From positions 1-23,219 of the IMG/VR virus record IMGVR_UViG_3300010885_072489: a stretch of 23,219 nucleotides of DNA. One strand, 5' to 3'. Below are positions 87-14,070 of this stretch, in pieces; positions within the stretch are counted from its first letter, which is position 1, and each line of letters opens with the position of its first letter. The position numbers and the translations under genes are program-made. Below the pieces are notes generated by a model. It had not been told where the DNA came from and made no database searches. It saw only the letters and a program-made list of their open reading frames with translations. Source of the stretch: a virus.

Positions 87-890
87 TTAATCCTCTATTG
101 TAAAGTTACGTTCTTGGTTTGTTTTTTTATTTGATATATTGTCCAGAAGCTCTTTGAGCACAGAATACATTTGTGTTGATCTGGTCTTAGAAAAATCTTT
201 GGTTTGCTTAATCCTAATAAGCATTAAGCCTTTACCTAAAATGAGTCCTTCTTTTTTTTGGTCATACTTAATATTTTTTTGAAGAGCATCCTCTCCCCAA
301 ACTGGAAGAAAGTGAGAAGGTCCGTCAATCTCTATAGCTATGTTCATGGTAGGAAGAAACAGGTCGATTTGCAACTTGGTATTTAGTAGGCTTTGCTCTT
401 TATGAAATTCTACCTTATATCCATCCTCTAGCAACTTATTGAATACGAATTTTTCTAATTTTGATCCTGTTTTTGAAGTAGCTCTGACAGCATCATTAGC
501 CAGCTTTGTCATATTTTGCTTTGATTCTTCGTCTAGTTTGTCCCAAGAGTCTTTTGCTTTTAATCTTCTCTGATTCAATGAATCTTCATCTAAAGAATCC
601 CAAGACTTCATTACTCCAACACCAATTTTATTCTTGGTATCCTCTGATCTATTCTGTCCTTTAGTGGGATGTTTGTGTTTTCCCGATTTCAGAGCATTTT
701 TTTGAGCATCAGATTTATCTCTAATTGGAATTTTTAAAGTTAATATCTCTCTTCTGATCTTATTAGGATAGGTACCAAGCTCAGTAGCTATATCTGCAAA
801 ACTCTTTTTTTGAGTCAGATACATATCCTCTAATATAGAATATTTTTCTTTAGTATTTAATTTATCAAATGATTTTGGATAATGATTCAT
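87..890 (-). CDS. HTH/NUMOD-like EDxHD-type endonuclease, probable free-standing homing endonuclease
   Basis: This 267-residue protein has a helix-turn-helix-like N-terminus (about residues 12-55, with SFADIATELG). A NUMOD3-like patch follows (about 74-92, HPTKGQNRSEDTKNKIG), then a 19-residue tandem repeat beginning SWDSLDE and SWDKLDE (about 96-133), then a nuclease domain. The nuclease domain shows D176 in IDLFLP, the run EIDGPSHF (E187, D189, H193) and D210-Q211, the arrangement of Vsr-fold EDxHD endonucleases such as phage homing enzymes. NUMOD segments are DNA-recognition modules typical of homing endonucleases. It overlaps the preceding gene by 26 bases and a GAG element precedes the ATG. 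I infer DNA cleavage at a specific phage site. A repair or recombination nuclease is the alternative. No intron is visible around it. Confidence 0.7.
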   Translation of the reverse strand: MNHYPKSFDKLNTKEKYSILEDMYLTQKKSFADIATELGTYPNKIRREILTLKIPIRDKSDAQKNALKSGKHKHPTKGQNRSEDTKNKIGVGVMKSWDSLDEDSLNQRRLKAKDSWDKLDEESKQNMTKLANDAVRATSKTGSKLEKFVFNKLLEDGYKVEFHKEQSLLNTKLQIDLFLPTMNIAIEIDGPSHFLPVWGEDALQKNIKYDQKKEGLILGKGLMLIRIKQTKDFSKTRSTQMYSVLKELLDNISNKKTNQERNFTIED

Positions 891-1335
891 AGTTTAGCTC
901 TGGTATGGTTGCTATGGGTTTTTTCCAACAAATTTCGTATATATCACTAATGTTCTGGTTCTTTGCAACAATTTCAAGATTAGGCTGAGAAAGCATATCC
1001 TTCCAATCTTTGTGTATTGTGGCAGGATTATCTGCCCATGGAATATTAGTAGCATAAAAATATCTATTAATTAGATTTGGACAATCTTTTGTTAAGATTA
1101 ATGATGGTAGATCAAAAAGAAATAAAGATCCAAAGAAATACTTCATTTCATTCAGATGGAATATGGGTAGTCTTCCATCAGGCCAACCATCCACAGTACT
1201 ACTGAATATACAAACTTGATCATATGGTCTGTTTCTAGAAATATCTAAGAGTGGTTCTATAATACCTGAAATACTAGAGTCTAGTTTTAATAGAACAAAT
1301 CCGATATCTCTCTTTTGTGTTTCTTTTGTTTTCAT
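865..1335 (-). CDS. Conserved-looking protein of unknown function, last gene of the glycan-type cluster
   Basis: This 156-residue protein has no motif I can assign. It begins with a hydrophobic strand-like stretch (IGFVLLKL, residues 11-18), and shows a DGWPDGRLPIFHLNE segment and the short run YATNIPW. Alternating strands and helices suggest an alpha/beta fold, perhaps a reduced Rossmann-like domain related to its glycosyltransferase neighbours. No signal peptide or membrane helix is evident. It overlaps the upstream gene by four bases and the downstream nuclease by 26 bases. No clear ribosome-binding site precedes the ATG, so it may depend on translational coupling. Function is unknown. A link to the cluster rests on position only. 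Confidence 0.6.
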   Translation of the reverse strand: MKTKETQKRDIGFVLLKLDSSISGIIEPLLDISRNRPYDQVCIFSSTVDGWPDGRLPIFHLNEMKYFFGSLFLFDLPSLILTKDCPNLINRYFYATNIPWADNPATIHKDWKDMLSQPNLEIVAKNQNISDIYEICWKKPIATIPELNYESLSKII

Positions 1336-2048
1336 ATTAAATTTGATTCTATAAAGTTTTTATATGTTGTTATTTTTTTCTTACTGGTTTTTATTTTAGA
1401 TTTTGATTTTAGATTTTTAAGTTCAGATAGAGATATTACCTTACAGCCACAATTTAAAGCCTCGTTGGAATAATAGTTGTCTATCGATAGAAAATATTCT
1501 GACTCATTTAAAATTTCTGGTTTAGTAAACTCATTTAACATTCCAAGATTCTGATGATGTTTGATCCTATGATTATTGAATAGTCTTATTTTAAGTTTAG
1601 AGTTTGGATATAAGTGCTCCTCTAGTTCTTCTGGTATATTATCTAGTTGGTCTATAAAGCATGAAATATGGTCTCGTTTCTTTGTTTTTGTATTAACATA
1701 GATATAATCATTAACTAAAGATGGGATTTGAATGCATTGCTTATGTTTAATTAACGATAGATTTGTGCAGGCTTGGTTGAAGTGTGTGAGTATATCTAGG
1801 TTAATTTCTTTTTCGTTATGATAAATAAAGAATTTAATATCTTTAGAATGAAACTCAGATATGAATTGAGCTATTTCCATATTAAATAGAGAGGATACAA
1901 ATATAGCGTGGTCGAACTTAAATTTATAGTACGTTCTATATAGGTCATCAGAGATAGGACACGACACAACTTGGTGTCCCATACGCCTTAAAGATATAAC
2001 GATATTGTTAATAAATTTATCGTCTAGCTCCTGCACAAAAAATTTCAT
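1332..2048 (-). CDS. GT-B-like glycosyltransferase-family protein, divergent
   Basis: This 238-residue protein begins with a strand-like MKFFVQELDD. Near residues 186-206 it carries the run YFLSIDNYYSNEALNCGCKV. That run matches the donor-binding region of GT4-type enzymes, where EAxxCGxPV follows the last sugar-nucleotide contact. The second Glu of the usual EX7E motif is present (NEALNCG), but the first is a Ser, so the catalytic or binding pair is incomplete. The protein is shorter than the 350-400 residues common for GT-B enzymes, so the N-terminal acceptor domain seems reduced. The C-terminus is Lys-rich. It overlaps both neighbours by four bases. The fold assignment is fair. Whether it is active is uncertain. 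Confidence 0.5.
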   Translation of the reverse strand: MKFFVQELDDKFINNIVISLRRMGHQVVSCPISDDLYRTYYKFKFDHAIFVSSLFNMEIAQFISEFHSKDIKFFIYHNEKEINLDILTHFNQACTNLSLIKHKQCIQIPSLVNDYIYVNTKTKKRDHISCFIDQLDNIPEELEEHLYPNSKLKIRLFNNHRIKHHQNLGMLNEFTKPEILNESEYFLSIDNYYSNEALNCGCKVISLSELKNLKSKSKIKTSKKKITTYKNFIESNLI

Positions 2049-2722
2049 ATAAATACTTTCGCTCGTTGAAGATCTTTCATTGCTGTTATTTTCATTATAC
2101 TGTTTTTGGGTATCTTTATCTTTTCGAAAAAAAGACCTGTATCTATCAACATATTAACTAGCTCAAAGACGTACAGCTGTGTAATATTTTTATGTTTTAC
2201 TATATCTTTTATTTTAGTAATCGCATCGTGGTTCAAAAAAACGCATTCACTCCATTTTTCTGGTAAATCATAAAAAAGATACGTAGTGTCGCTTGACGCC
2301 TGACATCCTACGTTAAAGTCTGGTTTTCCTTTATCTAGAACATATATTGCAGAAGACTCTTGATCACAAACTTCACCGAACGGTTTTTTAAATAGAACCC
2401 CGTTATTTATCACCAAGAGACTTTTAATTTCAAGTTCTTTAATGCAGTCAACTATAGATTTGACCTGATTAGTTGTTTTAAATTCTTTGTTAATTATAAG
2501 ATTAACATCGTATTGAGATAATGCTTTAATCATTCGTTCAGACTCAAAACCTATTGAGATATTAATACTAATTTCTTTATAGCATTTTTTAAGCTCAAAA
2601 ATTTGATACTCTATAACGGATAAAGTTTTCTTAATTTGCAGCAAAGATTTTGGTCCAACAGACTTCATTCCTTTAGTAATTTCTGTTGCTATAATAATAG
2701 CATTTATCTTATTTGGTTCCAT
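2045..2722 (-). CDS. Nucleotidyltransferase-like (sugar-phosphate/phosphocholine type) protein with degenerate active site
   Basis: The 225-residue protein opens with INAIIIATEITKGM and then VGPKSLLQI. This aligns with the start of NTP_transferase-fold enzymes, whose signature is roughly AIILAAGxGTRM-x4-PKSLLPI. A second match is TTNQVKSIVDCI followed by LLVINNGVLF, where LicC-like enzymes have TNNxxSL and then a GD pair that binds the metal. Here the Gly-rich GxGTRM loop reads EITKGM and the GD pair reads NG. The fold is therefore recognisable but key residues are replaced. Active members make CDP-choline or sugar nucleotides. This copy may bind without catalysis. It overlaps the next gene by four bases and the upstream gene by 14. 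Confidence 0.5.
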   Translation of the reverse strand: MEPNKINAIIIATEITKGMKSVGPKSLLQIKKTLSVIEYQIFELKKCYKEISINISIGFESERMIKALSQYDVNLIINKEFKTTNQVKSIVDCIKELEIKSLLVINNGVLFKKPFGEVCDQESSAIYVLDKGKPDFNVGCQASSDTTYLFYDLPEKWSECVFLNHDAITKIKDIVKHKNITQLYVFELVNMLIDTGLFFEKIKIPKNSIMKITAMKDLQRAKVFI

Positions 2723-3467
2723 AAGATAACTTAATAGTTCCCTCCAAATCAGATATTGCTTTTAATATATTGGGATTCTCACCCTTCGCATAAGAATAGG
2801 AGTCAAATGACATTAAAAGTCCGTCCATGCTATCTTCTTTTCCTTTTTTGAATAGAACATGAAAGTTTGGCTGGTCAATATTTATTATGGTATTAATTTC
2901 ATTAATATCTTCGTCAAGACTATCTATATCTCTGGGGCTATAAAATAATAATAGTTGTGAGTTATTGTTTTTTAGATTTGTGTCTAAAGCTAAATGAATA
3001 GCTTCCATTTTATTCATTTGAACTATAAAGCCATGCGATTTCCACTCAGTATTTTCTATTTTGGCTTCTTCTATAGTTTTTATCTTTCCTTTAGAATTTC
3101 CTTTGGAGTTATTCAAAATTAAAAAAGATATGTATTTGGGCGGTATCTGTAGTTCTTTTATTTTTTTACATACTATTGATAGTTCTTTGTTATCTAATGA
3201 TGTTATATCCATTACAAGATAATATTTGATACATGCATTTTGTAATATTTCAGATTTGATATCTTCAATAGAATGTTTATCTCTATTATTTTCAAAAGCC
3301 TGTTTAGAAAACCCCATCTTGCAAGTATAGTTTTCTATTACGTAAAAATCATTTTCTACACTCAGTTTTTTTGTATCTCTAATATGATCTATAATCATGT
3401 GCTCGCATGGATGATCACTAGATATCTTGTCGGAAAATAAACAGTTTTCGCATTTTGTATTTTTCAT
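2709..3467 (-). CDS. Cys4 N-terminal domain plus GT-A/GT2-like domain
   Basis: This 252-residue protein starts with four cysteines spaced C6-x2-C9-x11-C21-x27-C49, inside CENCLF, PCEHMIIDHI and FYVIENYTCKM. That pattern resembles a Cys-rich N-terminal domain that I recall in front of phage GT2-like proteins, and it could bind zinc or an Fe-S cluster. From about residue 80 the pattern suggests a GT-A fold: YLVMDITSLDNKEL, then YISFLILNN, then MNKMEAIHLALD. The expected metal-binding DxD after the LLLFY strand is replaced by SPRDID. It overlaps the nucleotidyltransferase-like gene by 14 bases and the methyltransferase-like gene by four. The GT2 assignment is tentative, and the missing DxD raises doubt about activity. 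Confidence 0.45.
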   Translation of the reverse strand: MKNTKCENCLFSDKISSDHPCEHMIIDHIRDTKKLSVENDFYVIENYTCKMGFSKQAFENNRDKHSIEDIKSEILQNACIKYYLVMDITSLDNKELSIVCKKIKELQIPPKYISFLILNNSKGNSKGKIKTIEEAKIENTEWKSHGFIVQMNKMEAIHLALDTNLKNNNSQLLLFYSPRDIDSLDEDINEINTIINIDQPNFHVLFKKGKEDSMDGLLMSFDSYSYAKGENPNILKAISDLEGTIKLSYGTK

Positions 3468-3883
3468 AGTATTTCTTTTCTCACTACAGATATTAAGATA
3501 GAATCCTCTCTATATTCTATTTTAGATAGAATAAATTCGTTATTATTTATTTTATCATTAATCTCTTCTACTGTTGTAAGAGTATTATTGTTTGATATTT
3601 TACTAATAAATTCTTGTGAAGTTATTTGATTATCCCAGTATAGTTTGGCTAGCGTCTTTGTGTCTATAAATCTAAGAACCAAAGAACCTCCAATCCTAAT
3701 TTTTTGCAGTAGCTTATTTAGGTATAAATCCTTAGTTTTTTCTTCAAAACGATTAATGATAGAACAATACAAAGTATCAACAGAATAGTTTATTATATCG
3801 TCTGCTCTAGAAACAGATACGCTTTCAAAACCATCTAAATGTTGTGTTGATACTGTGTCAACAACATGAATATTTCTGCTCAT
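3464..3883 (-). CDS. Truncated class I methyltransferase-like protein
   Basis: This 139-residue protein resembles only the second half of a class I SAM-dependent methyltransferase. LLQKIRIGGSLVLRFID (about residues 58-74) matches the helix and turn before motif IV-V (LLxxLKPGGxLxI). The preceding VDTLYCSIINRFEEK looks like the strand and helix before it. The Gly-rich SAM-binding motif I (GxGxG) is absent, and the N-terminus enters directly at a later strand. Sugar or glycan methyltransferases are common in polysaccharide clusters. This copy may be non-catalytic or need a partner. It overlaps the upstream gene by four bases (TATGA junction), and an AAGGA lies 11 bases before the ATG. Confidence 0.45.
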   Translation of the reverse strand: MSRNIHVVDTVSTQHLDGFESVSVSRADDIINYSVDTLYCSIINRFEEKTKDLYLNKLLQKIRIGGSLVLRFIDTKTLAKLYWDNQITSQEFISKISNNNTLTTVEEINDKINNNEFILSKIEYREDSILISVVRKEIL

Positions 3884-4752
3884 AGTATAAAAGGTTCCTT
3901 GGTTAAATCAATAATAAGTTTATATAGTTCTTTGTCAAAGATTTCAAAATTATATTCTTCAATAGTTTTTGCTCTTATTTCTTTGTTTTTAACTATATCA
4001 AAACCATTAAATGTTTCTGAAATAGCTTTATTCAGTTCATCGCTGGTATTATATGTTACAGTCTCATCATAGAATGGAATACTAGATATTACAGAACAAC
4101 CAGAAGCCATAGCCAGTAATGAATACAGAGAATTATCTAGTATGATTGCTACCTTATACTGGCCTAGCATAGTCATAATATTCTTAATCGATAAACTAGC
4201 TAAATCTACTAGTAGCCCTGCATCCTGTGCTATTTCTCTTATCTGAGAACATAGAGATCTGGCTTGTTTTTTATTAGACTCGGAAATAACTATTATGGAT
4301 TTCCTGTCTTTCGAGTCATTAAATTCAAATTCTGGTATGCCTGGTTTTATTTGAGTAATATCAAGATGTTCTTTCCATACATTGTATATTAATTTATTAA
4401 AACATATTTTCTTAGAATGAGATAGATTTTGTCTTAAAATAATCAGATCCTCTTTTTTAAGAAGTCCAAGAGGAAGATCAAGAAAAGGAATCACGCTATG
4501 AACATGCATCATGTTTGATATTACTTTATGTTGCCTATTTGTTTCTAAATAGTCATTAGTAAAATATGCACTATAGCCAATATTTAATATTTCTTCAGAG
4601 ATATTAGAAGTTTTGATAAAGTTTAATAACTTTGATTCCATAAGTAGTAAAGGAGTAATAGAGCTAATAGTATCGCTATATAGTATATTCATACTACTCT
4701 TATTAGAATTTCTGATTGTAGTTTCAATTATGTTATGTATATTAGTGGTCAT
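3880..4752 (-). CDS. GT-B (GT4-like) glycosyltransferase-family protein, degenerate EX7E
   Basis: This 290-residue protein looks like a GT-B glycosyltransferase. Two strand-rich halves are visible, with KSIIVISESNKKQARSLC (about 151-168) starting the C-terminal Rossmann domain and VAIILDNSLYSLLAMASGC near residues 201-219. The latter aligns with the GT4 segment PSxxEGFGxxxxEAMAxG, but the second Glu is Leu (LLAMASG) and the first is also lost. The first ATG (4752) has no good ribosome-binding sequence. The ATG at 4692, preceded by AAGAG and encoding MNILYSD, resembles the start of the next gene (MNILYIG) and may be the true start, removing 20 residues. It overlaps both neighbours. Confidence 0.55.
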   Translation of the reverse strand: MTTNIHNIIETTIRNSNKSSMNILYSDTISSITPLLLMESKLLNFIKTSNISEEILNIGYSAYFTNDYLETNRQHKVISNMMHVHSVIPFLDLPLGLLKKEDLIILRQNLSHSKKICFNKLIYNVWKEHLDITQIKPGIPEFEFNDSKDRKSIIVISESNKKQARSLCSQIREIAQDAGLLVDLASLSIKNIMTMLGQYKVAIILDNSLYSLLAMASGCSVISSIPFYDETVTYNTSDELNKAISETFNGFDIVKNKEIRAKTIEEYNFEIFDKELYKLIIDLTKEPFIL

Positions 4753-5762
4753 TATATTATATCTGATGTTTTATTTATGGGAATATCTTTTGGGGACTTA
4801 GAGTTTCCATTATTAGCATAATGAATCATATTAGATACTATACTTTGAGTTATAATAGATTCTATGGCGTCACCAGGACTATATCTGATATTATTTGAAG
4901 ATCTAGAATATGGAACCTCAACGACATTTGTATTATTCTTATCTATAATGTTATTACCAAAGAATAAAGCATACTCTTTTTGAAGCATCGAATCTCTGGG
5001 ATACAAGCTCAACAACGTATTACATGAATTATGTACGATTAGTTGGTCTATCTCAGACAGCCTATCAAATATATAAATCTCATTAATAGAATTATTAAAA
5101 GGAGATATTTCAATTTGTTCCTTCATTTCTTTTCTTGTTTTATTTAGATGCTCTTGGTCTTGACCTGATCCTTCAAGTACCATTATTAAGCTGGTTTTAT
5201 CTCTGCATCTAAAAGCTAGGTAAAAAGAAAGAATAATTTTATTAATTATCTCTAGGTCTTCTCTGTAATTGCCAAAGAAATAGAACTTATGATTGTTATT
5301 ATGTATACCAAAATCAAACTTCTTATCTTTAATCTCCTTAGCCATCTCTAAATTTATTGGACAAGTAATCTTTTTGATCTTAGATTTTACTTCTGATCTT
5401 ACAAGCATAACTTCTTCATTTTGACTATTGACAAGGACAGAATCAAATAAATTTAATTGATTGATAATAGGAGTAGAGTTAATACGTGTGAGTGGCTCAC
5501 TAATTGGAATTGCTATATTATTTTTGAATCTTGCAGAATACGACAACATATTTAGAGGCAGGTGCTGTATACAGCAATCGTATTCATTTAGTTCGTTTTT
5601 TTCTAGAGTTAAAATGTCTTGACTTACATGTTTTGTTTTTTCAGATAGAAACACAGGTCTAGCTGTAACATTATGTTTTTTAGCTAATCCCATCAGATAG
5701 AGTCTGGACATCTCAGAATCATCACCATATTCTCGATATGGTCCTATGTATAAAATATTCAT
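4752..5762 (-). CDS. GT-B glycosyltransferase-family protein
   Basis: This 336-residue protein begins MNILYIGPYREYGDDSEMSR, typical of the first strand and glycine turn of GT4-like enzymes. A C-terminal Rossmann domain starts near residue 158 with KFYFFGNYRED. It continues with a strand LIMVLEG, a strand IYIFDRLSEIDQLIVHNSC and a segment LLSLYPRDSMLQKEYALFFGN. The last segment is where the EX7E pair should lie. The second Glu is present (QKE) but the first is not. An AAGGGG sequence just before the ATG and a TAATG junction with the upstream gene support this start. No membrane segment is seen, so it is probably cytoplasmic. Donor and acceptor cannot be read from the sequence. Confidence 0.6.
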   Translation of the reverse strand: MNILYIGPYREYGDDSEMSRLYLMGLAKKHNVTARPVFLSEKTKHVSQDILTLEKNELNEYDCCIQHLPLNMLSYSARFKNNIAIPISEPLTRINSTPIINQLNLFDSVLVNSQNEEVMLVRSEVKSKIKKITCPINLEMAKEIKDKKFDFGIHNNNHKFYFFGNYREDLEIINKIILSFYLAFRCRDKTSLIMVLEGSGQDQEHLNKTRKEMKEQIEISPFNNSINEIYIFDRLSEIDQLIVHNSCNTLLSLYPRDSMLQKEYALFFGNNIIDKNNTNVVEVPYSRSSNNIRYSPGDAIESIITQSIVSNMIHYANNGNSKSPKDIPINKTSDII

Positions 5763-7432
5763 TATGATGACCCCTTCATCTCTGCGTATTCAATAAAGTC
5801 GTCGTTAAATTTAATATTTTGCATTCGAGCTTTTTCTGAACCATTGTTATTATCTATATATGTTGCTACTAAAGAAAGAGCATCAGATAGATCATATGAA
5901 CTTATAGCTTGTCCATTAGTTACAAATCCATAATCTAGATCTTTAAGCATATCTAGAAATAGCATACTAGACATCTTATTATAATTCTGTAAATTATTAT
6001 TACAGAAATACATCAATAAGTCAAAATACCTATTACCTACTTGATCTGGGTCTATTTTTGAAATTTGATTTAGTATTTTTGGTGGGGCACTCCAATCTGC
6101 TCTATAATTGCTGGCATCTAATTGATCTAAATAATTTTCCCACTTCTTGGTTGTTTTATCCCAATTATATTCTTTTTCCGTTAGAGCTCTAATATTTTTA
6201 GAAGCCCTATCTCTTGTCTCACTATCTGTTAAAAGATAATTTAACATTTTAGATACCAGGTCATCATTATCTGGATAAGTTCTTATTGATTTTGTCTCTA
6301 GTTCTTTGAATTTTGATTTGACCTTAATGCCTGTTGCATTTAGCTTATTAATAATATCCATCATTGCACTATATTCTACAGTAAATACTGGCACTCCACA
6401 AGCGCCAGCTTCTACTTGTGGCATCCCAGCCCCTTCACATATGGCATATTGTACATACGCATCAAATACATTGTAGATATAAGATAATTGTTCAGAAGAT
6501 ACTCCCTCTACCACTGATGGAAAATGACAAGATTTTTCTCCACATTCTGGACAACCACAAGTTGGGCCACAAAATTTTCTAGCAGAGATCCTCCTGCAAT
6601 TTCTGCAAAAATAAGTAAATAATACTCGATTAGCTAGTCTGTGTTCTTTTAATAGATGAGGAATATCCCATCCAGCATCAGGATAACTAGTATGCATATA
6701 TAGATAAAGATTTTTTCCTAGCTCTGGATGTTTTTTCTCACATATGTCTAGTAGTTTTCTAAAAGAAAGAAATAGATCAGGTATGAGTTTTCTTTTTTGG
6801 TTCCTCATTACAGAACCTATAATAACAGCATTCTCGTCTATATTAAGAGCCTTCTTGATTGCCTTTTTTGTTTCTTGGCTATGTGGCTTAAAAACAGAAA
6901 GATCAACCCCTGGAGCAGCAGTGCCTATGTAGTTAACCTTGTTTGAGGTTTGCTTCTTGAGCACATCCGCTCCCCAATCTGAATAAGTGAATATTGCGTT
7001 TGCAGAAAGATAGGTATCTAACCATGATTCTTGTTGTGGTTCTGAATCGACCGTTGGCATTAAAATCCAATGAAAGTATTGTCTTAATGGGGATAGTGCT
7101 TGATAAGAACTCATCCAGTAATCTCTTACATCTATAACAACGTCGGGCTTAAAGTCCAAAAGAACTTTTTCAAACCTCCATCTTCCAAACTGATTATCTC
7201 CTCTTGAGGAATATTCTTTATGCCTAGGATCATTATCTGCTACACAGTTAGCATAGTATCTCCATGGTATTTGACTATCTCTTGGATCATTTACTGTTCC
7301 ATAAGATGCAAATTCTGCTATTTCATATTTTTTAGTTTTATGCAAACGAGACAGAATCTCTTTAGTATAGACAGCAAAGCCAGAGCTTAAAAAACTGGCT
7401 TCAGAACACATGAGAACTTTTAATTTATCCAT
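5762..7432 (-). CDS. GT4-family glycosyltransferase with inserted Cys-rich knuckle
   Basis: The protein is 556 residues from the ATG at 7432, which has an AGGA nine bases upstream. A further in-frame ATG at 7474 lies inside a strong hairpin and is unlikely. Counting from the upstream ATG, SEASFLSSGFAVYTKEIL (24-41) is the acceptor-side glycine loop. YIGTAAPGVDLSVFKP (182-197) leads into the donor domain, and GSVMRNQKRK (220-229) is the expected phosphate-binding region. EGAGMPQVEAGACG (347-360) carries an intact EX7E pair. Between strand VLFTYF and VSSEQLSYIYN lies an insert with seven cysteines (C290, 293, 302, 306, 308, 311, 316), probably zinc binding. A C-terminal extension of about 120 residues is unassigned. 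This is the best candidate for an active glycosyltransferase in the cluster. Confidence 0.8.
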   Translation of the reverse strand: MDKLKVLMCSEASFLSSGFAVYTKEILSRLHKTKKYEIAEFASYGTVNDPRDSQIPWRYYANCVADNDPRHKEYSSRGDNQFGRWRFEKVLLDFKPDVVIDVRDYWMSSYQALSPLRQYFHWILMPTVDSEPQQESWLDTYLSANAIFTYSDWGADVLKKQTSNKVNYIGTAAPGVDLSVFKPHSQETKKAIKKALNIDENAVIIGSVMRNQKRKLIPDLFLSFRKLLDICEKKHPELGKNLYLYMHTSYPDAGWDIPHLLKEHRLANRVLFTYFCRNCRRISARKFCGPTCGCPECGEKSCHFPSVVEGVSSEQLSYIYNVFDAYVQYAICEGAGMPQVEAGACGVPVFTVEYSAMMDIINKLNATGIKVKSKFKELETKSIRTYPDNDDLVSKMLNYLLTDSETRDRASKNIRALTEKEYNWDKTTKKWENYLDQLDASNYRADWSAPPKILNQISKIDPDQVGNRYFDLLMYFCNNNLQNYNKMSSMLFLDMLKDLDYGFVTNGQAISSYDLSDALSLVATYIDNNNGSEKARMQNIKFNDDFIEYAEMKGSS

Positions 7433-7449
7433 AAGTAGTCCTAATATTA

Positions 7450-7479
7450 ACAGTACAGGGGCCGAAGCCCCCATACTGT
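7450..7479 (-). terminator. Strong UUCG-capped hairpin after ssb, probable terminator or processing element
   Basis: On the minus strand the 30 bases form a 13-bp stem, ACAGTATGGGGGC and its partner, closed by the extra-stable C(UUCG)G tetraloop. Only two pairs are G-U wobbles. It sits between the stop of ssb and the start of the large glycosyltransferase. The 3' side in the minus direction is only moderately T-rich (TAATATT), while the plus-strand 3' side is TTTTGTT, so terminator strength in the gene direction is uncertain. It could attenuate read-through from the replication genes or protect the ssb mRNA 3' end. Confidence 0.65.
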
Positions 7480-7502
7480 TTTGTTATAAAGATATATTCC
7501 TA

Positions 7503-7880
7503 TCAGAAGCTCACAACTTCATTTTCTTCAGCTTGAGCCTTACTTGGCTTACTAAGCTTTGTAATCTTAGAAAAGTTATTTACTCTAACCTTTAGACTAC
7601 TGTGCTTAACGCCATCCTTTTCCCACGAATCATTACGAAGAGAACCTTCTACTAAAACTAAGTCACCCTTCTTAAATGAAGAACCGATAATATCAGCACC
7701 AGAATCCCATGCTTCACAATTGATGAATGATGCAATCTTATCCTTTTCGCCATTAGCCTTCGTATACTCTCGGGAAACAGCAACAGTAAAATTAACTACT
7801 GATGTTTGCTTACCGCTAGTATTAACAACTCTTAGTTCAGGATCACGAGCCAAATTTCCTCTGAGAATAGTAATATTCAT
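7503..7880 (-). CDS. ssb: Single-stranded DNA-binding protein
   Basis: This 125-residue SSB has one OB fold. MNITILRGNLARDPELR, NFTVAVSREYTK, FINCEAWDSGADI and KKGDLVLVEGSLRNDSW are the standard SSB blocks. The C-terminus, rich in Glu with a terminal Phe (EENEVVSF), stands in for the usual DDDIPF tip that recruits replication and repair partners, in a weaker form. It is shorter than bacterial SSB (about 170 residues) because the linker is short, which is common in phages. An AGGAG eight bases before the ATG gives a strong start. A 70-base gap with a promoter-like sequence precedes it and a hairpin follows, so it may be expressed partly on its own. It would coat single-stranded DNA for the phage replisome. 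Confidence 0.93.
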   Translation of the reverse strand: MNITILRGNLARDPELRVVNTSGKQTSVVNFTVAVSREYTKANGEKDKIASFINCEAWDSGADIIGSSFKKGDLVLVEGSLRNDSWEKDGVKHSSLKVRVNNFSKITKLSKPSKAQAEENEVVSF

Positions 7881-7923
7881 CTAATCATCTCCTAGTTTCA
7901 AAAAGTAAATCGAACACAACACT

Positions 7924-7954
7924 GTTATAGTATCTGAACCACGCCAGAAGTCAA
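7924..7954 (-). promoter_or_regulatory. Sigma70-like promoter candidate for ssb
   Basis: In one of the few real gaps, the minus strand reads TTGACT at 7954-7949 and TATAAC at 7929-7924, a 5/6 match to each consensus, with a 19-base spacer. ACTATA at 17 bases is an alternative -10. The ssb ATG follows about 45 bases downstream. The long spacer lowers confidence. Confidence 0.4.
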
Positions 7955-9576
7955 GATTTAGGGGTAAAGCATTTTTCAATCACGAAGGCATCTTTGTTTT
8001 TTGTTTTATTACCCACAAAGATGAGAATATTTCTCTCAAATAAGTGGGCTTTATATTCGTCCCATTTTTCTGGAAATAATACAACAGAATCTAGTATCCC
8101 ACTATTGTCTTCAATAGTAATAAATGCCATTTCCTGACCTGGATTTTTACCCTTTTTTGTTTTTACAACATTAACATTAACTATTTCTCCAGCTAAAATA
8201 ATATTTTTATCAATAATGGTGTTTTTATATTCTTTACAATCCATGTTGGTCATACTTATGTCATAAGTGTCTAACTTTGAACACGTAATTGATGCTCCTA
8301 AAAGCTGACTTTCAGAATCAGAGAGCCACTCTATTTTATCTATTAAAGAATATGGAGGATTGTCTGTAAGCTTTATTAGATTAAGAATATTATCTTTACG
8401 ATTCTTATTAATCTTAGTACCATATTCATATAACCTACCAAGACATTGCTTGAGTGTGTACTTTTCTTCTGGTATTAATGATACCAATTGTTCTAATTCT
8501 TTTTTTGTTAAACCAGAAATAATGTCATATTCAAATAACATCTCTGTTCTATTTTTCTTAATATAGTCAAACGCTCCACTACTAATCAAAGCTTTTGCTG
8601 CTGTAGAGTTAATGTTCATTAGTATTTGACTACATATTTTTAACCAATCAAGACTATTAACGTCTATATTCTTTACTAACTCTAGAATTTTTTGAAATAC
8701 TGATGCCCCAACACCCTTTATGTCTGTTAAACCAAAATATATGTGCTTATCTTTTATGATAAAAAACTCATTAAGATTTCTGAAATCTGGAATATAAACA
8801 TTAATATCCATTTCATTTGCGTTTCTGATAAGTTCCTTAATCTCTTGTTGAGGATCTATCTTATCTTTAGCAAACCTTAAATAAGAAGCAAAAAATATCC
8901 TTGGAAAATGAGCTTTAGTATAAGCCGATAAATATCCATTTACAGCATAAGAAACAGCATGAGACTTATTAAAAGAATACCTCTGACTCTTTTCAATCCA
9001 CCCGAAAATTTCCTCTGCCTGCTCAACAGATACAGAATTAACTTTCTTGGTCCCTTCTAAAAACTTTGACTTTACCTTTGCCATCTCTTCTGGTTTTTTC
9101 TTTCCAATAGCCTTTCTTAACATATCCGCTTCTTTAAGATCAAAGCCAGCAATTGTTTGAGCTATTTCCATAGCCTGTTCTTGATAAATCATTTCTCCGT
9201 AAGTGCTTTTCAGAGCTACTTCTAATGCAGAATGAAAGTAGTCGATGCTTTCTTGTCCATTCTTTTTATCAATATAGTGATTTGAAACACTTTTCCCGTC
9301 TCTAATAGCTTCTAGACATCCTGGTCTAAGAATACTAATTAAAGCAGAGAGTTGTTCGATATTTTCTGGTTTGAGTTTTTTTGCCATGGATTGCCCAAGT
9401 CTGGACTCCAATTGAAAACAACCCTTAGTATTACCACTTGAGATTAAATCCCATGTCTTTTGGCATTCTAAATTAATTTGTTCAATATTAGGATTAAAAT
9501 GTATGGAATTATTTCCATTCTCCAGTTTTGTTGCTGGAAATTTACATCCACATTCAAAAGTTAAAAATTCAGGCAT
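7951..9576 (-). CDS. dnaE: DNA polymerase III alpha, C-terminal half (fingers, HhH, OB)
   Basis: This 541-residue protein is the second half of a DnaE polymerase. After a 38-residue extension with C9, C11 and C38 that canonical DnaE lacks, it enters at TWDLISSGNTKGCFQLES (41-58). It continues with LISILRPG, YGEMIYQEQAMEIAQ (126-140), MLRKAIGKKKPEEMAK (152-167), SFNKSHAVSY (201-210), a helix-hairpin-helix near FGLTDIKGVG (281-290) and an OB fold from about 458. The palm aspartates and PHP domain lie on a separate gene upstream, so the two products must assemble. I see no obvious clamp-binding motif or tau-binding domain. It overlaps the exonuclease gene by eight bases. Its own AAAGGA is about 14 bases from the ATG, so coupling is likely. 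Confidence 0.92.
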   Translation of the reverse strand: MPEFLTFECGCKFPATKLENGNNSIHFNPNIEQINLECQKTWDLISSGNTKGCFQLESRLGQSMAKKLKPENIEQLSALISILRPGCLEAIRDGKSVSNHYIDKKNGQESIDYFHSALEVALKSTYGEMIYQEQAMEIAQTIAGFDLKEADMLRKAIGKKKPEEMAKVKSKFLEGTKKVNSVSVEQAEEIFGWIEKSQRYSFNKSHAVSYAVNGYLSAYTKAHFPRIFFASYLRFAKDKIDPQQEIKELIRNANEMDINVYIPDFRNLNEFFIIKDKHIYFGLTDIKGVGASVFQKILELVKNIDVNSLDWLKICSQILMNINSTAAKALISSGAFDYIKKNRTEMLFEYDIISGLTKKELEQLVSLIPEEKYTLKQCLGRLYEYGTKINKNRKDNILNLIKLTDNPPYSLIDKIEWLSDSESQLLGASITCSKLDTYDISMTNMDCKEYKNTIIDKNIILAGEIVNVNVVKTKKGKNPGQEMAFITIEDNSGILDSVVLFPEKWDEYKAHLFERNILIFVGNKTKNKDAFVIEKCFTPKS

Positions 9577-10270
9577 TAGAGTTAACGAAAGATCCTTTAA
9601 ACTTTACTTTATCAGATAGGTTTCTATGTAGTTTCAAAAAACGAATTAATAATTGTGCAGTGTCCTTAACGTCTTTTAGAGCATCATGAGCATTCTCTCC
9701 ACTTAGCCCAAAATATTCTCTAACATGATCCAAGGTATAGTTTTTAAGCTCATTGCTTCCCTCAAACCAATAAAACATAATATTCATTATATCAACAACA
9801 TCTCTAGGATAAAATATTGAACTTTTTCCTTCTTTATTTAGATTATTATATTTGACACTTAGTCTTTCTGTAATCTTCAAATCGAATCTATTAATATTGT
9901 ATCCAACAGCAATAGGGGCGGAGAAACAAGATTTCTTTGTTGATCTAGTATGATACATATCTAGATAGGATGTGAACATTTTCCAGCCATTCTCTTGTTT
10001 TTGATATTCTGACCAAGACTTAAGAATATCTGCTTTTGTAGAATTTCTTACTTTGGCATGAAAGTCTAAAACATCACTATCGCTATAATCATAGTCTGGC
10101 TTATTTTGTAAAGCCTCTGGCTTAAGATTAATGTTAAACTCAGAATCTGGAATGATTTCCAATTTAACTGGATCAACCATAACGGCAGCTATCTGAACCG
10201 GGCTACATTTATCTGGATTAATCCCATCTGTTTCCAAATCGAATACGCAAAACTTTTGAAAATTAGCCAT
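9569..10270 (-). CDS. dnaQ: DnaQ-type 3'-5' exonuclease (DEDDh)
   Basis: This 233-residue protein carries all three exonuclease motifs. FDLETDG (10-16) gives D11 and E13, YNINRFD (124-130) gives D130, and HDALKD (195-200) gives the His and Asp of a DEDDh active site. The family removes mismatched 3' nucleotides, and as a stand-alone protein it is the usual proofreader for bacterial-type Pol III. Its place between the two halves of DnaE fits a role as the polymerase's proofreading subunit. The ATG has GGAAG immediately upstream and overlaps the end of the small gene before it. It is close in length to E. coli epsilon (243 residues). The tail (SFVNSNA) shows no clear clamp motif. Confidence 0.9.
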   Translation of the reverse strand: MANFQKFCVFDLETDGINPDKCSPVQIAAVMVDPVKLEIIPDSEFNINLKPEALQNKPDYDYSDSDVLDFHAKVRNSTKADILKSWSEYQKQENGWKMFTSYLDMYHTRSTKKSCFSAPIAVGYNINRFDLKITERLSVKYNNLNKEGKSSIFYPRDVVDIMNIMFYWFEGSNELKNYTLDHVREYFGLSGENAHDALKDVKDTAQLLIRFLKLHRNLSDKVKFKGSFVNSNA

Positions 10271-10442
10271 TTACTTCCACATCCATTTCTGATGAAAAAT
10301 AAGATTTATTGCCTGGATCACCAATAACTTCGCAATTAATTACCTTACAGCAAGTAACGCGATACTCTTGAATTTTAATATATTCTGTACCTGCGATAGA
10401 AAATTTTTCTCCAATTACAACGTCTTTCATTTTTTTAAGCAT
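10263..10442 (-). CDS. 59-residue protein between the polymerase halves
   Basis: An ATG at 10442 opens a 59-residue frame ending at a TAA at 10265-10263, eight bases into the exonuclease gene. AGGAG lies nine bases before the ATG, at the end of the polymerase N-terminal gene, which makes it a credible gene. The sequence has a GEKFSIAGTEYIKIQE start, a CCKVINCEVIGD middle with three cysteines, and an acidic end. Short alternating hydrophobic strands suggest a small beta barrel of a kind common in phages (F-x-x-G-x-x-Y-x-K). It lacks the termini expected of an intein. Function unknown. Location suggests a link to the polymerase. Confidence 0.7.
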   Translation of the reverse strand: MLKKMKDVVIGEKFSIAGTEYIKIQEYRVTCCKVINCEVIGDPGNKSYFSSEMDVEVNG

Positions 10443-10444
10443 GT

Positions 10445-12307
10445 CTATTCTCCTTTTTTTAAAGAATCTGCTATATTCATAATTTTATCTAACATCGCTA
10501 TACCAAGAACATCAAACTTAATGATGCCTAATGCTTCTAGGTCTTGCATTTCCATTCCGGCTATCGATTGCTTATTCTTTGAATCATATACCATAGGACA
10601 CACAGAACCTAAATTTTGACTACTGATAACTACACCGGCAGCGTGTTTAGACTGGTTAGATTTAGTTCCTTCTAAACGGATAGCTTGCTCAAACCTTTTG
10701 GCTAATGGACCAGATAGGTGATCGTCATCATCAATATAGCACCATTCCTTCAGCTTGTCAACATTATTTTCTAGAGACCATCGCAGAATAGATGCTTCTC
10801 CCGTATCTTCTTTCATTTGTTGTAACTCGTCTGCAATTTTTGCCTCATCAGGAATACATTTTGTGATTCTATTCATTTCTTCAAATGATATATTACCATA
10901 AACCCTTAATACTTCTTTTAGTGCTCCCCTACCCTTCATAGTGTTGAAGGTTATCATCTGAGAAACTTTATCATGACCATATTTTAATTTAATATACTCG
11001 ATAATAGATTCTCTCTTATTGATTGGAACGTCAACATCAATATCTGGCATAGAAATACGGTCTTTTGTATTTCGACCAGAATTGTAGAATCTTTCGAAAA
11101 TTAAACTATACTTGATAGGGTCAATGGATGTAATCCCAATTAAATAAGAGACCAGACAGCCCGCAGCAGATCCTCTACCGGGACCGGGTAGCCAATCCTC
11201 TAGTCTAACCTTATTCACAATGTCTCCCACAATCAAGAAATAACTGGACAATCCAGCCCCCTGTAAAATATCCAACTCGTACTTAATTCGATCAATATAT
11301 TTTTGTTGGTTTTCTTTATCAATATTATTAGCTATTTTATCCTTCCATCCTTTTCGGCAAAGTTCTCTAAGATACTCGTCTGGATTAAAATTATTAGGAC
11401 ATGAGAAAGGAGGTAGCATTGGCTTATGTAAAATATCATAATCTTCACATAGACTGTCTACGTAGTTAGTGTTCTCTATTTCTTCTTCAGTATGTAGTAG
11501 TGCTATCTCTTCTGGTGATAAGATATGGAAATTGTCTGACTTAAAAAAGCAACCCATAGGGATACTTTCATGATTAAGTATCTTCTTATTAATATCGGCT
11601 AAGGTTGTTTTAAGATTGTTGCAAAGAAGTATTCTCTGATCGACAGCATCTTCTTTCTCACAGTAATGAGCGTCTGGGGTACATATTACTTTTGTGTTTG
11701 TATTTTTGCCAAGTCTTCTTATTATGTTTGTTAGTTCGATTTGTTCTGGAGTACTTTCTTTATCCATAAGCTGGCACTCAAGAAAATATTCATCTCCAAA
11801 TAAGTCTTTCATATAAGAGACATGCTCTGTTCCGATCCTCATAGCATTGTCTGGATCATCTTGAATAGCATCTGCTATGGTCGAGCCCAGATGACCAGAG
11901 AAACCAATCAGATTACCATTCAAGAAAGGTTTTAGTCTATCAAAGCTAATTCTTGGTTTATGATAAAAATTTTCTGGCTTATTAGTTTCAGATATAATTT
12001 TAATGAGATCGAACCAGCCAGCATTATTTTTTGACAATACAATAAAGTGACTCAGGTCGCTATTTTCCTTTGTTTTAATATGGGAATCTTCACGACTAAT
12101 ATAAAGCTCACACCCAAGTATTGGCTTAATGCCCTTGGCCTTAATTTCTTGAAAGAATTGTACCGTACCTGCTATAGACCCATGGTCTGTAATAGCACAA
12201 GACTTTACTCCAATTTTTTCACATCTATTTGCTATTTGAGATGGTTTTGATAGTCCGTCCAATAAAGAGTAATGACTATGGGCATGTAATGGTATATACT
12301 TTTTCAT
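10445..12307 (-). CDS. dnaE: DNA polymerase III alpha, N-terminal half (PHP and palm)
   Basis: This 620-residue protein holds the PHP domain and palm of a C-family polymerase. PHP motifs are LHAHSHYSLLDG (7-18), AITDHGS (38-44), GCELYIS (65-71) and TPDAHY (210-215). The nucleotide-binding GPGRGSAAG is at 375-383, the acidic MPDIDVDV at 420-427 and the third catalytic Asp in KFDVLG at 598-602 (D599). Palm chemistry is therefore complete in this half. The gene stops 19 codons after D599 at a TAG, where normal DnaE runs on into the fingers. AGGA before the ATG and an ATGA overlap with the nuclease gene support the start. It should synthesise phage DNA with the C-terminal half at 7951-9576, SSB and the DnaQ-type protein. 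Confidence 0.93.
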   Translation of the reverse strand: MKKYIPLHAHSHYSLLDGLSKPSQIANRCEKIGVKSCAITDHGSIAGTVQFFQEIKAKGIKPILGCELYISREDSHIKTKENSDLSHFIVLSKNNAGWFDLIKIISETNKPENFYHKPRISFDRLKPFLNGNLIGFSGHLGSTIADAIQDDPDNAMRIGTEHVSYMKDLFGDEYFLECQLMDKESTPEQIELTNIIRRLGKNTNTKVICTPDAHYCEKEDAVDQRILLCNNLKTTLADINKKILNHESIPMGCFFKSDNFHILSPEEIALLHTEEEIENTNYVDSLCEDYDILHKPMLPPFSCPNNFNPDEYLRELCRKGWKDKIANNIDKENQQKYIDRIKYELDILQGAGLSSYFLIVGDIVNKVRLEDWLPGPGRGSAAGCLVSYLIGITSIDPIKYSLIFERFYNSGRNTKDRISMPDIDVDVPINKRESIIEYIKLKYGHDKVSQMITFNTMKGRGALKEVLRVYGNISFEEMNRITKCIPDEAKIADELQQMKEDTGEASILRWSLENNVDKLKEWCYIDDDDHLSGPLAKRFEQAIRLEGTKSNQSKHAAGVVISSQNLGSVCPMVYDSKNKQSIAGMEMQDLEALGIIKFDVLGIAMLDKIMNIADSLKKGE

Positions 12308-13386
12308 TCTGTGCTTCCTGGTGCTTTATATTTCCCAAAAGAGTGGTTCTTGTTTTTATACTGTTCTACCACAACATTCATTCCGTGCAAGTCTATGTCA
12401 TGTTTTACTTGTTCGCATTTGGTCATAGTCGAACCCATATTACAAGTATGGTTCTCTCTGTATTCTGTCTGTGGTGTTATGTGTGTATTATCAAATGTTG
12501 TTTTTCCAAAATGACATAATTTTGTACACATCCAGCTTTTATTTAATCTTGGCTTTCTAGTGTTTTTAACTATGTCAAATTTTTGACGCAACATTTCTTC
12601 TGTTTTGGGTAGATCAGACTTGTCAAAACAAATTGAAAAGGGGCCACCATCATTGATAAAATAAATAGAGAAAATGATATGATCTATGTGTGGATAAAGA
12701 TGACTAATGGCATAATGATATATTCTTAACTGAGGATCACTTTCTAATTTTTCCTGAGTTTTTTCTTTACCGGTAGCCCAGTCTAATCTTTTTCCTGTTT
12801 TCCAGTCTACAATTTCAATAGTATTTTCACTGACTAATGTTATAAGATCAATGGTTCCTTTTATAGCGAGATTGCCTTCAAGCTTTCCTTCTGGGGTATC
12901 ATAAGAATAGGCTGACCAAGGTTTCTTAATTTCAATATCAAAATGTTGTTCAGGGCATAGAATATGCCTATTCCTTGGGTCGAACATACCTCCATTAAAC
13001 TCAATAGCCTTATATACCCAAGCATTACAGTCTTTGTAGTCTTTTGGTGACCATTTATGGTGGGAGTTTGCCTCAGAATAGTGTTTATAGACTTTCTCTG
13101 TAATAGTATTTAAATCGTATTTATTGACATCTAGCTTGCCAACAACGTCGTCATCTATGGACGATAGTTTATCTTGTTGAGCTTTTTTGATAACTGCTAA
13201 GATTTCTAGAACCTTATGCACAATGGTTCCCTTATCGGCTTTTTGACCTGATGGGCCACGATAGCCTAAAACATATTCAAGAAAATATTGTTGCTCACAC
13301 ATTGAGTGCGTGTTATAGGAGCTGCTCCTAAAGTATGTAACTATAATGATAGATTCTCCTGTAGGAACTTTTGAATATCTGTGCAT
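12304..13386 (-). CDS. RecB/Cas4-type PD-(D/E)XK nuclease with possible Fe-S cluster
   Basis: This 360-residue protein has the RecB-nuclease core: GTIVHKVLE (H57), IKGTIDLI (D180), IEIVDWKTGK (D194, K196) and QLRIYHY (Q219, Y223). C30 in SMCEQQYFLEY, with C287, C291 and C315 near the C-terminus, brackets the fold the way a 4Fe-4S cluster does in Cas4 and AddB. The family resects DNA ends, so a role in phage recombination or host DNA breakdown is likely. The start is uncertain. The ATG at 13386 has no ribosome-binding site and overlaps the dNMP kinase gene by 46 bases. A good AGGAG lies further in, before an ATT codon that could be a rare start near 13350. No CRISPR array or other cas gene is present. 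Confidence 0.82.
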   Translation of the reverse strand: MHRYSKVPTGESIIIVTYFRSSSYNTHSMCEQQYFLEYVLGYRGPSGQKADKGTIVHKVLEILAVIKKAQQDKLSSIDDDVVGKLDVNKYDLNTITEKVYKHYSEANSHHKWSPKDYKDCNAWVYKAIEFNGGMFDPRNRHILCPEQHFDIEIKKPWSAYSYDTPEGKLEGNLAIKGTIDLITLVSENTIEIVDWKTGKRLDWATGKEKTQEKLESDPQLRIYHYAISHLYPHIDHIIFSIYFINDGGPFSICFDKSDLPKTEEMLRQKFDIVKNTRKPRLNKSWMCTKLCHFGKTTFDNTHITPQTEYRENHTCNMGSTMTKCEQVKHDIDLHGMNVVVEQYKNKNHSFGKYKAPGSTE

Positions 13387-14066
13387 TGTTCATATATATT
13401 CATATCGTCATTACGACATACATAGTTAAAATTAGACCAGTCATAATTAGGTTCATCTAATATTGTTTCACTTAAATGATCAGAATGAAACGGATTGCGT
13501 GTTAGTCTCATCACTGAACCACCAGTATCCTTGATGCTAGATACTTCGTTAGGAAATCGACAGTCTGTAATCAAGGCTAGTTCTGGCTTCTCTTTATTTA
13601 TCCTATTTATTGTTGCAGACACCCAGACGTCAGATTTCATCTTACGAAATACGTCAGTGCCAACATATTGCATAATATCTCTTGATGTCATGAGATCGGT
13701 AGAGTTCGGCCAAGTTAAACCTGTTAACATATTCTTATCTTCATCCGAGCCATAGCATTGTTCGTATGTCAAGCCCAAAATATTCATACATATATCTTGT
13801 TTAAGTGGATCTGCAAAGCTATAAATTTTTACATATTTATCTAATAGGGTATATAGCTTGTTAAGCATAAAATCATTTTTTCTTGCTGAAGTATCTAATA
13901 CTCCTCGATAATTAATATCCCCGAATAAATCAGAGACAACGATCCTGCCTTCTTCATCAAGATCGACCTGTCTTGATACTTCAAGTCTAGCTAAATATAG
14001 CGAAACAATAAAATTCCCTGTTGTGCTTTTGCCAGACTGTTTTCTTCCAGATATTCCTAGTATCAT
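13341..14066 (-). CDS. Deoxynucleoside monophosphate kinase (T4 gp1-like)
   Basis: The 241-residue protein begins ILGISGRKQSGKSTTG, a P-loop with the GRKxSGKST form typical of the phage dNMP kinase family (T4 gene 1). Further family features are IYSFADPLKQ (81-90), MQYVGTDVFRK (132-142) and ITDCRFPNE (about 166-174). The family phosphorylates dNMPs, including modified or recycled ones, to dNDPs using ATP, which feeds the replisome. It sits between primase and nuclease genes, four bases after the primase stop. A weak AAGTGA precedes the ATG. With the ribonucleotide reductase upstream, it suggests that the phage supplies its own nucleotide precursors. Confidence 0.87.
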   Translation of the reverse strand: MILGISGRKQSGKSTTGNFIVSLYLARLEVSRQVDLDEEGRIVVSDLFGDINYRGVLDTSARKNDFMLNKLYTLLDKYVKIYSFADPLKQDICMNILGLTYEQCYGSDEDKNMLTGLTWPNSTDLMTSRDIMQYVGTDVFRKMKSDVWVSATINRINKEKPELALITDCRFPNEVSSIKDTGGSVMRLTRNPFHSDHLSETILDEPNYDWSNFNYVCRNDDMNIYEQCTDIQKFLQENLSL

Positions 14067-14070
14067 TTAA

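Follow-up and report, generated by a model that had tools for sequence, protein, structure and literature searches.

The window, meaning the whole stretch of DNA analysed here, is a 23.2-kb virus record from IMG/VR that codes almost entirely on the minus strand. Present on it are a phoH-like gene (so assigned from reading its translation), recA, genes for a DnaB-type helicase, a primase, a dNMP kinase and a PD-(D/E)XK nuclease, and a DNA polymerase III alpha divided between two genes, with an exonuclease gene lying between them, followed by ssb. Next come eight genes, named here gA (5762-7432) to gH (865-1335) in the order of transcription, and then an endonuclease-like gene:

7447..7477, minus strand: terminator-like GC-rich hairpin between ssb and gA, with a GGGGC-TTCG-GCCCC core
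5762..7432, minus strand: gA, GT4-type glycosyltransferase (Pfam Glycos_transf_1, 6e-9; PHROG 2170, 1e-23)
4752..5762, minus strand: gB, GT4-derived protein, without EX7E in the window's lineage (Pfam GT4 in 7 of 47 homologues)
3880..4752, minus strand: gC, GT-B-like protein without EX7E (PDB profile match to 8xsg; hhalign match to gG)
3464..3883, minus strand: gD, 139 aa, weakly like the later part of a class I methyltransferase (Pfam CMAS, 0.008, one member)
2709..3467, minus strand: gE, N-terminal Cys4 and a predicted GT-A-fold domain (AlphaFold, Foldseek), no conserved DxD
2045..2722, minus strand: gF, putative nucleotidyltransferase-derived protein (weak PDB profile and Pfam matches); EITKGMKS..K.LL replaces GxGTRM
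1332..2048, minus strand: gG, minimal protein of predicted GT-B fold (AlphaFold; Foldseek to GT4 enzymes)
865..1335, minus strand: gH, 156 aa, conserved, fold unplaced, kept in order in all full loci
87..890, minus strand: endonuclease-like gene (PHROG 559 HNH endonuclease, 2e-13; PADLOC mREase_II, 4e-6)

Eight genes behind ssb, from 865 to 7432, are what the preliminary description had reported, and every one of their open reading frames is there, tightly packed on the minus strand. Their position behind ssb stands, but a strong hairpin separates the cluster from that gene, and at the far end the run continues into the endonuclease-like gene. The latter is conserved and overlaps gH by 26 nt in the window, which is also the most frequent overlap across loci, so the operon contains at least nine genes. 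Of 62 distinct ssb-gA spacers, 53 contain the G4...C4 hairpin, as against 0.45% of random 100-nt windows. Eight of the nine spacers that lack it were inspected, and other hairpin-like inverted repeats are readable in seven of these, the exception being the locus L003. The operon is thus set off from ssb by a terminator-like or attenuator-like element and is probably not a simple tail of the ssb transcription unit. The same hairpin makes 7432 a better start for gA than 7474, since the upstream start would sit over it and since the gA of L004, a related locus, begins at the same place as 7432. An Rfam scan gave no match, and matches to sigma-70-type promoters were no commoner than in shuffled sequence.

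Conservation of the operon among uncultured phages

A profile search of IMG/VR with gA found 476 relatives, the best 80 of which were fetched, many of them on contigs of 100-244 kb. The synteny figures given here come from iterated HMM searches over the loci of these best 80 of 476, and more distant relatives may differ. The complete order gA-gB-gC-gD-gE-gF-gG-gH-endonuclease occurs in 53 loci (the window and 52 others), and in 18 further loci the order is the same with gE alone missing. L003 is a divergent version, with other genes where gE and gG would be. Counting this divergent locus, the gene order is shared by every one of the 72 loci long enough to include the endonuclease-like gene, which stands at the same place in each full locus. 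The rest are short and break off inside the cluster, except for two cyanophages, which have gA only. Junctions consist of an overlap or a gap of at most 10 nt in 96-100% of cases, commonly a 4-nt overlap at most of them. That one nine-gene order should recur in 52 other loci, and in 18 more that want only gE, makes the cluster more than chance, and a survey of the neighbourhood in related phages, an approach put forward in the preliminary description, shows it to be no local oddity.

The operon is fixed in a large and widespread lineage of uncultured aquatic phages. No close isolate relative of gA was found in the collection searched (the best matches have 22% identity), and the window's polymerase reaches at best 35% identity to those of isolate phages. 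A profile search of genome contigs turned up a single near-complete relative; the 25-kb contig that carries it was binned into an Alphaproteobacteria MAG and most likely belongs to a phage. L003, used as a query for more distant relatives, returned itself alone. Moraphages resemble this lineage in being large, uncultured and aquatic and in having several glycosyltransferases among their core genes, and they are described as carrying PolB and DNA polymerase I (PMC12619734). In contrast, a family A polymerase is absent from all 16 large relatives considered here and the window encodes Pol III alpha, so identity with the moraphages was rejected on polymerase type.

The glycosyltransferase gA and its seven partners

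Judged by its sequence, gA is the only intact GT4 glycosyltransferase among the eight genes. It scores 36 bits against PF00534 (cut-off 26.4) and has EX7E (E333, E341), an RNQKRK motif, a Cys4 insert (C276, C279, C294, C297) and a C-terminal extension of about 120 residues. EX7E and CxxC...CxxC are both present in 60 of 60 distinct homologues, and conservation reaches 85% or more at 220 of 556 positions. The Cys4 motif is absent from the gA homologues of the isolates S-EIV1 and S-CBS4. The L003 gene contains an apparent intein, inserted immediately ahead of the cysteine in front of EX7E. Inteins tend to sit at conserved sites in functional enzymes, and one at this place fits an active gA. A match of gA to PC4, at 0.005, was taken as chance.

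Within the window the first gene alone keeps EX7E, as had been claimed for it; gB, gC and gG lack the motif. The wider claim, that the partners are without EX7E, DxD, GxGTRM or the SAM motif, was borne out for each absence by the motif checks. How far the partners can be placed in families differs from one to the next. Single-sequence scans of gB to gH with Pfam and PHROG gave nothing credible beyond the weak match of gD.

The case of gB is clear: it descends from GT4 and is degenerate in the window's lineage. The gB of the window matches no family, yet Pfam GT4 matches appear in 7 of 47 homologues, the best at 6e-16. Six sequences of a sister group (L053, L059, L064, L078, L081 and L082) retain an EX7E of the PSYGEAFCRPAAEA type, L003 has EX7D in its place, and neither occurs in the window's sequence or in 53 of 60 distinct homologues. 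The seven that match Pfam are probably these same six together with L003, since the numbers are equal and these proteins are longer; the scan itself provides counts and names only L003. The preliminary view that the cluster includes catalytically eroded proteins is borne out for gB by relatives that still have EX7E or EX7D. On the gA tree one change suffices to account for the distribution. The simplest reading, a single loss on the way to the lineage of the window, is not proven, since support for the branch between the two types is low (23) and the tree is rooted on L003, whose branch is long; the direction of change is my inference. A PDB profile match of gB to the designed protein 4hhu was short or weak and was discarded.

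For gG, the AlphaFold model (pLDDT 95.9, pTM 0.89) confirms a predicted GT-B fold: Foldseek matches it to GT-B enzymes of GT4 type (9v0l at 7.6e-6, BshA at 3e-4, TMq about 0.52), the comparison being that of a predicted model much shorter than its targets. It keeps the region of the second glutamate, E196-A..CG, in which E196 is near-invariant among homologues, and lacks the first E of EX7E. The profile of gC aligns to that of gG (hhalign 85%), with the E196-A..CG stretch in common, and matches a putative glycosyltransferase in the PDB, 8xsg, over 159 positions (E=0.009). K99, E101 and D102 of gC are invariant and K100 nearly so (KKED). These matches weakly favour gC as a glycosyltransferase-like protein of GT-B type. 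Comparisons of gA with gB and gH, of gB with gC and gG, and of gH with gG and gC yielded no usable signal. A profile match of gG to ribosomal L1, short or weak, was discarded, and a PADLOC match of gC to CARF (E about 0.005) was taken as chance.

A GT-A fold is likewise confirmed for gE by prediction (AlphaFold pLDDT 93.6). Foldseek places the model with GT-A/GT2 enzymes at 2e-5 to 1e-3 (6yv7 2e-5, GtrB 6e-5, SpsA 1.6e-4), with a TMq of about 0.48 for the predicted structure. Its N-terminal cysteines C6, C9, C21 and C49 are invariant, and no acidic residues are conserved at the strand end, where DxD would lie, in 35 homologues. For gF the PDB profile search returned only four matches, all of them to nucleotidyltransferases and all weak (E 0.05-0.27), and Pfam NTP_transferase was matched by two members (best 0.0025), which lends slight weight to a nucleotidyltransferase-like assignment. 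The GxG[TS]R[ML] signature occurs in none of 55 gF homologues; EITKGMKS stands at its place in 54 of the 55, and K20, N85, E187 and N190 are invariant. Comparison of the gE and gF profiles gave no signal.

Profile matches of gD to methyltransferases in the PDB (E 0.1-0.6) are weak and cover only the part that follows the SAM-binding motif, and neither motif I nor any glycine-rich N-terminal motif is present in the alignment of homologues; a methyltransferase ancestry is only hinted at. No credible family or PDB match was found for gH, in which F44 and W100 are invariant. For the partners other than gB, then, profile-profile searches lend weak support to gC and gF as glycosyltransferase-like and nucleotidyltransferase-like, predicted structures uphold GT-B for gG and GT-A for gE, a methyltransferase ancestry of gD is left as a hint and gH stays unplaced. 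Profile matches of gE and gH to unrelated PDB proteins, being short or weak, were discarded, and a PADLOC match of gD to Cas7c (E about 0.005) was put down to chance. No credible match to a defence system was found in the operon except in the endonuclease-like gene, where the product bears a weak resemblance to a methyl-directed restriction enzyme.

Purifying selection on the partners

Values of dN/dS were calculated (NG86) for the closest pairs, six listed per gene with dS mostly 0.2-0.7; medians over all pairs are higher but saturated and were left out. In these close pairs dN/dS is 0.04-0.06 for gA, 0.07-0.17 for gB, 0.11-0.18 for gC, 0.06-0.12 for gD, 0.11-0.27 for gE, 0.05-0.12 for gF, 0.10-0.27 for gG and 0.08-0.12 for gH, the last excluding one pair at 0.86, whose dN of 0.55 marks it as distant. 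The partners as a whole (about 0.05-0.18, and up to 0.27 in gE and gG) are held more loosely than gA, and such values indicate that they are needed. Every gene has an open reading frame in each locus covering the whole operon, so the relatives with decaying pseudogene copies that the preliminary description had envisaged are not to be found among these. Low dN/dS and the lack of broken copies together argue that the partners are not decaying, and on the dN/dS values decay was rejected for gB to gD and gF to gH. The word "eroded" thus holds for the canonical catalytic motifs, which are gone, and does not hold for the genes. Their sequences speak clearly for proteins that are functional and under purifying selection, and that change fast: identity to L004 is 40-58% for the window's partners, against 82-93% for its ssb, polymerase and exonuclease, and mean identity among homologues of gB, gC and gD is 27-29%. 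That the cluster is a decaying one, on its way out, is scarcely credible; lost motifs and a dN/dS above that of gA would fit, but open genes in every spanning locus and ratios far below 1 in close pairs do not. Some lineages have lost gE.

A proposed glycosylation complex and the alternatives

I propose that the operon encodes a phage glycosylation complex, in which gA is the catalytic GT4, moving sugar from a nucleotide sugar, and gB to gH are partners whose folds are those of glycosyltransferases, nucleotidyltransferases and perhaps methyltransferases. Most of the partners would be catalytically dead and would serve instead to bind acceptor or donor, or one another. gB would probably once have been a second working GT4, made into a partner by the loss of EX7E. 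This is the simplest model for one invariant transferase accompanied by overlapping, selected, motif-poor glycosyltransferase-like genes, and I put its probability at roughly 40%. The visible sign of such a complex is the coupling of the genes. The reaction would be expected in the cytoplasm, because no stretch of 19 residues in the gA-gH products of the window scores above 1.5 in Kyte-Doolittle hydropathy, and none of them thus shows an obvious membrane segment. A grander version, a many-subunit machine of one GT4 and up to seven partners of several folds (GT-B, GT-A, nucleotidyltransferase-like, possibly methyltransferase-like), mostly pseudo-enzymes, acting on an acceptor new to phage biology, would be the largest such set that is known around a single active glycosyltransferase, though I consider this doubtful.

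The strongest rival, unlikely all the same, is a multi-step glycan pathway in which most of the proteins are active by way of non-canonical residues, gF activating a sugar or alditol phosphate, gB, gC, gE and gG transferring it and gD methylating. Many glycosyltransferase families, some of GT-B and some of GT-A type, work without EX7E or DxD, and absence of these motifs is therefore no proof that a partner is inactive. The residues kept invariant in gF, with its near-universal EITKGMKS, and in gC make these two the best candidate enzymes and may point to ligand binding or an alternative active site; in gG, E196 is also suggestive. Invariant charged residues in gC and gF could be catalytic, which would count against the proposed complex, as do the dispensability of at least gE, missing from 18 loci, and the low identity of gB, gC and gD, a faster change than would be expected at the interfaces of a rigid complex. 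It is difficult, on the other hand, to see an enzyme in a gE that conserves no acidic residue where DxD would lie, in a gD without SAM motif I, or in a gB that has lost its catalytic glutamates and conserves few residues. Less likely again is that the operon modifies a host surface polysaccharide or lipid-linked precursor and so blocks superinfection, a role that Iyer et al. propose for the glycan clusters of jumbo cyanophages (PMC7824862). The large relatives do carry a separate block of what read as sugar-nucleotide genes, with another GT4. Yet surface-glycan clusters are sporadic and variable where this operon is fixed and syntenic, and gA to gH of the window include no membrane protein, flippase, polymerase or anchor-type hydrophobic segment.

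That separate block bears on the question of the acceptor. In all five large relatives that were read, a canonical GT4 lies beside an IMPDH-like gene elsewhere in the genome, near a variable block of what read as sugar-nucleotide and glycosyltransferase genes; the two such regions that were scanned have both a head protease and a tail-fibre-like gene no more than 10 kb away. It is this second region, not the gA-gH operon, that has the appearance of a classical module for virion or surface glycans. I accordingly favour, with low confidence, a protein as the acceptor of the operon, one most likely belonging to the phage or the host. The preliminary description had also offered phage DNA as the thing decorated. 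Glycosylation that shields phage DNA from restriction, while the endonuclease attacks host DNA left unmodified, would suit the position of the operon between ssb and a gene weakly resembling a methyl-directed restriction enzyme, and the dNMP-kinase gene in the window. A source of hydroxylated bases should then be present, but with working controls the thymidylate-synthase family (PF00303) was found in one of 16 large relatives and C5 cytosine methylase (PF00145) in none, on contigs that may be incomplete, and TET/JBP and 2OG-FeII_Oxy_6 (PF12851, PF20515) were found in none of the 16 by a search that lacked a working positive control. DNA as the target is accordingly improbable. Just as improbable is an anti-defence role, in which fast-evolving pseudo-enzymes bind nucleotide signals or defence proteins and make no glycan: several partners derive from nucleotide-binding folds and all diverge much faster than their neighbours, but gA is still a fully conserved transferase and the endonuclease provides the only credible defence-system match.

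A precedent for the proposed complex is the GtfA/GtfB pair of serine-rich repeat adhesins, in which GtfA is the transferase and GtfB a chaperone acting on the acceptor (PMC6973325). One catalytic protein and one acceptor-chaperone partner suffice there, whereas the operon has up to four glycosyltransferase-like partners besides nucleotidyltransferase-like and possibly methyltransferase-like ones. No Pfam match to DUF1975 was found in gA or gB. What sets the operon apart from this precedent is the number and variety of partners around one GT4. From the GT4 family itself (PF00534, PHROG 2170), which gA matches with EX7E and of which gB is a clear descendant, gA differs by its Cys4 insert and C-terminal extension and the gB of the window's lineage by want of EX7E. 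The polysaccharide-modification clusters of jumbo phages also bring several glycosyltransferase-type genes together in a large phage, but they are described as sporadic and polymorphic and as including sugar-activating enzymes (PMC7824862), unlike a fixed, syntenic, motif-poor operon. T4-type DNA glucosylation offers a phage glycosyltransferase near replication genes together with an endonuclease-like gene, but a gene of the thymidylate-synthase (hydroxymethylase) family was not found in 15 of the 16 large relatives. The cyanophages S-CBS4 and S-EIV1 each have a gA homologue, followed in S-CBS4 by genes annotated as galactosyltransferase and methyltransferase; these homologues have about 22% identity and no Cys4, and no relatives of gB to gH were found nearby. 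The gA-gH operon is not described in the available portions of the closest literature (PMC7824862, PMC12619734).

An operon fixed in so widespread a lineage (476 gA contigs in IMG/VR) does something these phages need, and one intact enzyme with selected, motif-less relatives suggests a many-part phage glycosylation machine that is unstudied. If the complex is real, it would offer a new model of how pseudo-enzymes assist glycosylation, and perhaps also a novel way of modifying virion or host proteins. The change from enzyme to partner is traceable, since sister lineages hold gB with and without the catalytic glutamates, and the proteins are small, look soluble and fold well in silico.

Borders of the operon

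Two elements border the run of eight minus-strand genes gA to gH (865-7432):
7447-7477, terminator-like hairpin in the spacer between ssb and gA
87-890, minus strand, endonuclease-like gene overlapping gH, the last gene of the run

The hairpin is conserved in the corresponding spacers of relatives, where its loops change and the pairing of G-rich with C-rich sequence is kept. The protein encoded at the other border weakly matches methyl-directed restriction enzymes. One might think of a wandering homing endonuclease, but the gene is too constant for that, since it holds its position behind gH in all loci that span the whole operon through this gene.

Split polymerase and apparent inteins

DNA polymerase III alpha occupies 7951-12307 as two genes, with an exonuclease gene between them:
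10445-12307, first polymerase gene
7951-9576, second polymerase gene

The same arrangement is found in L002, L003, and L004. In L003, a 170-kb relative with a divergent version of the operon, translation suggests two inteins, one interrupting the gene for the C-terminal part of polymerase III alpha (6927-9008) and the other the GT4 gene (9986-12844), just before the EX7E motif. That operon also includes a P-loop kinase gene (13977-14516; AAA_33, 7e-10).

A second glycan region

The large relatives L087 to L091 possess a second glycan region, near virion genes. There a gene resembling IMPDH/GMP reductase adjoins that of a canonical GT4 of about 352 aa, and putative sugar-nucleotide genes form a variable block.

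Hints of a host

A near-relative of gA (L094) lies on a 25-kb contig within an Alphaproteobacteria MAG (Lanier in title), a weak hint of the host or simply mis-binning. Clear Shine-Dalgarno sequences are missing from most start codons within the operon, which instead have A/T-rich stretches ahead of them, a context that perhaps hints at a host of the Bacteroidota type.
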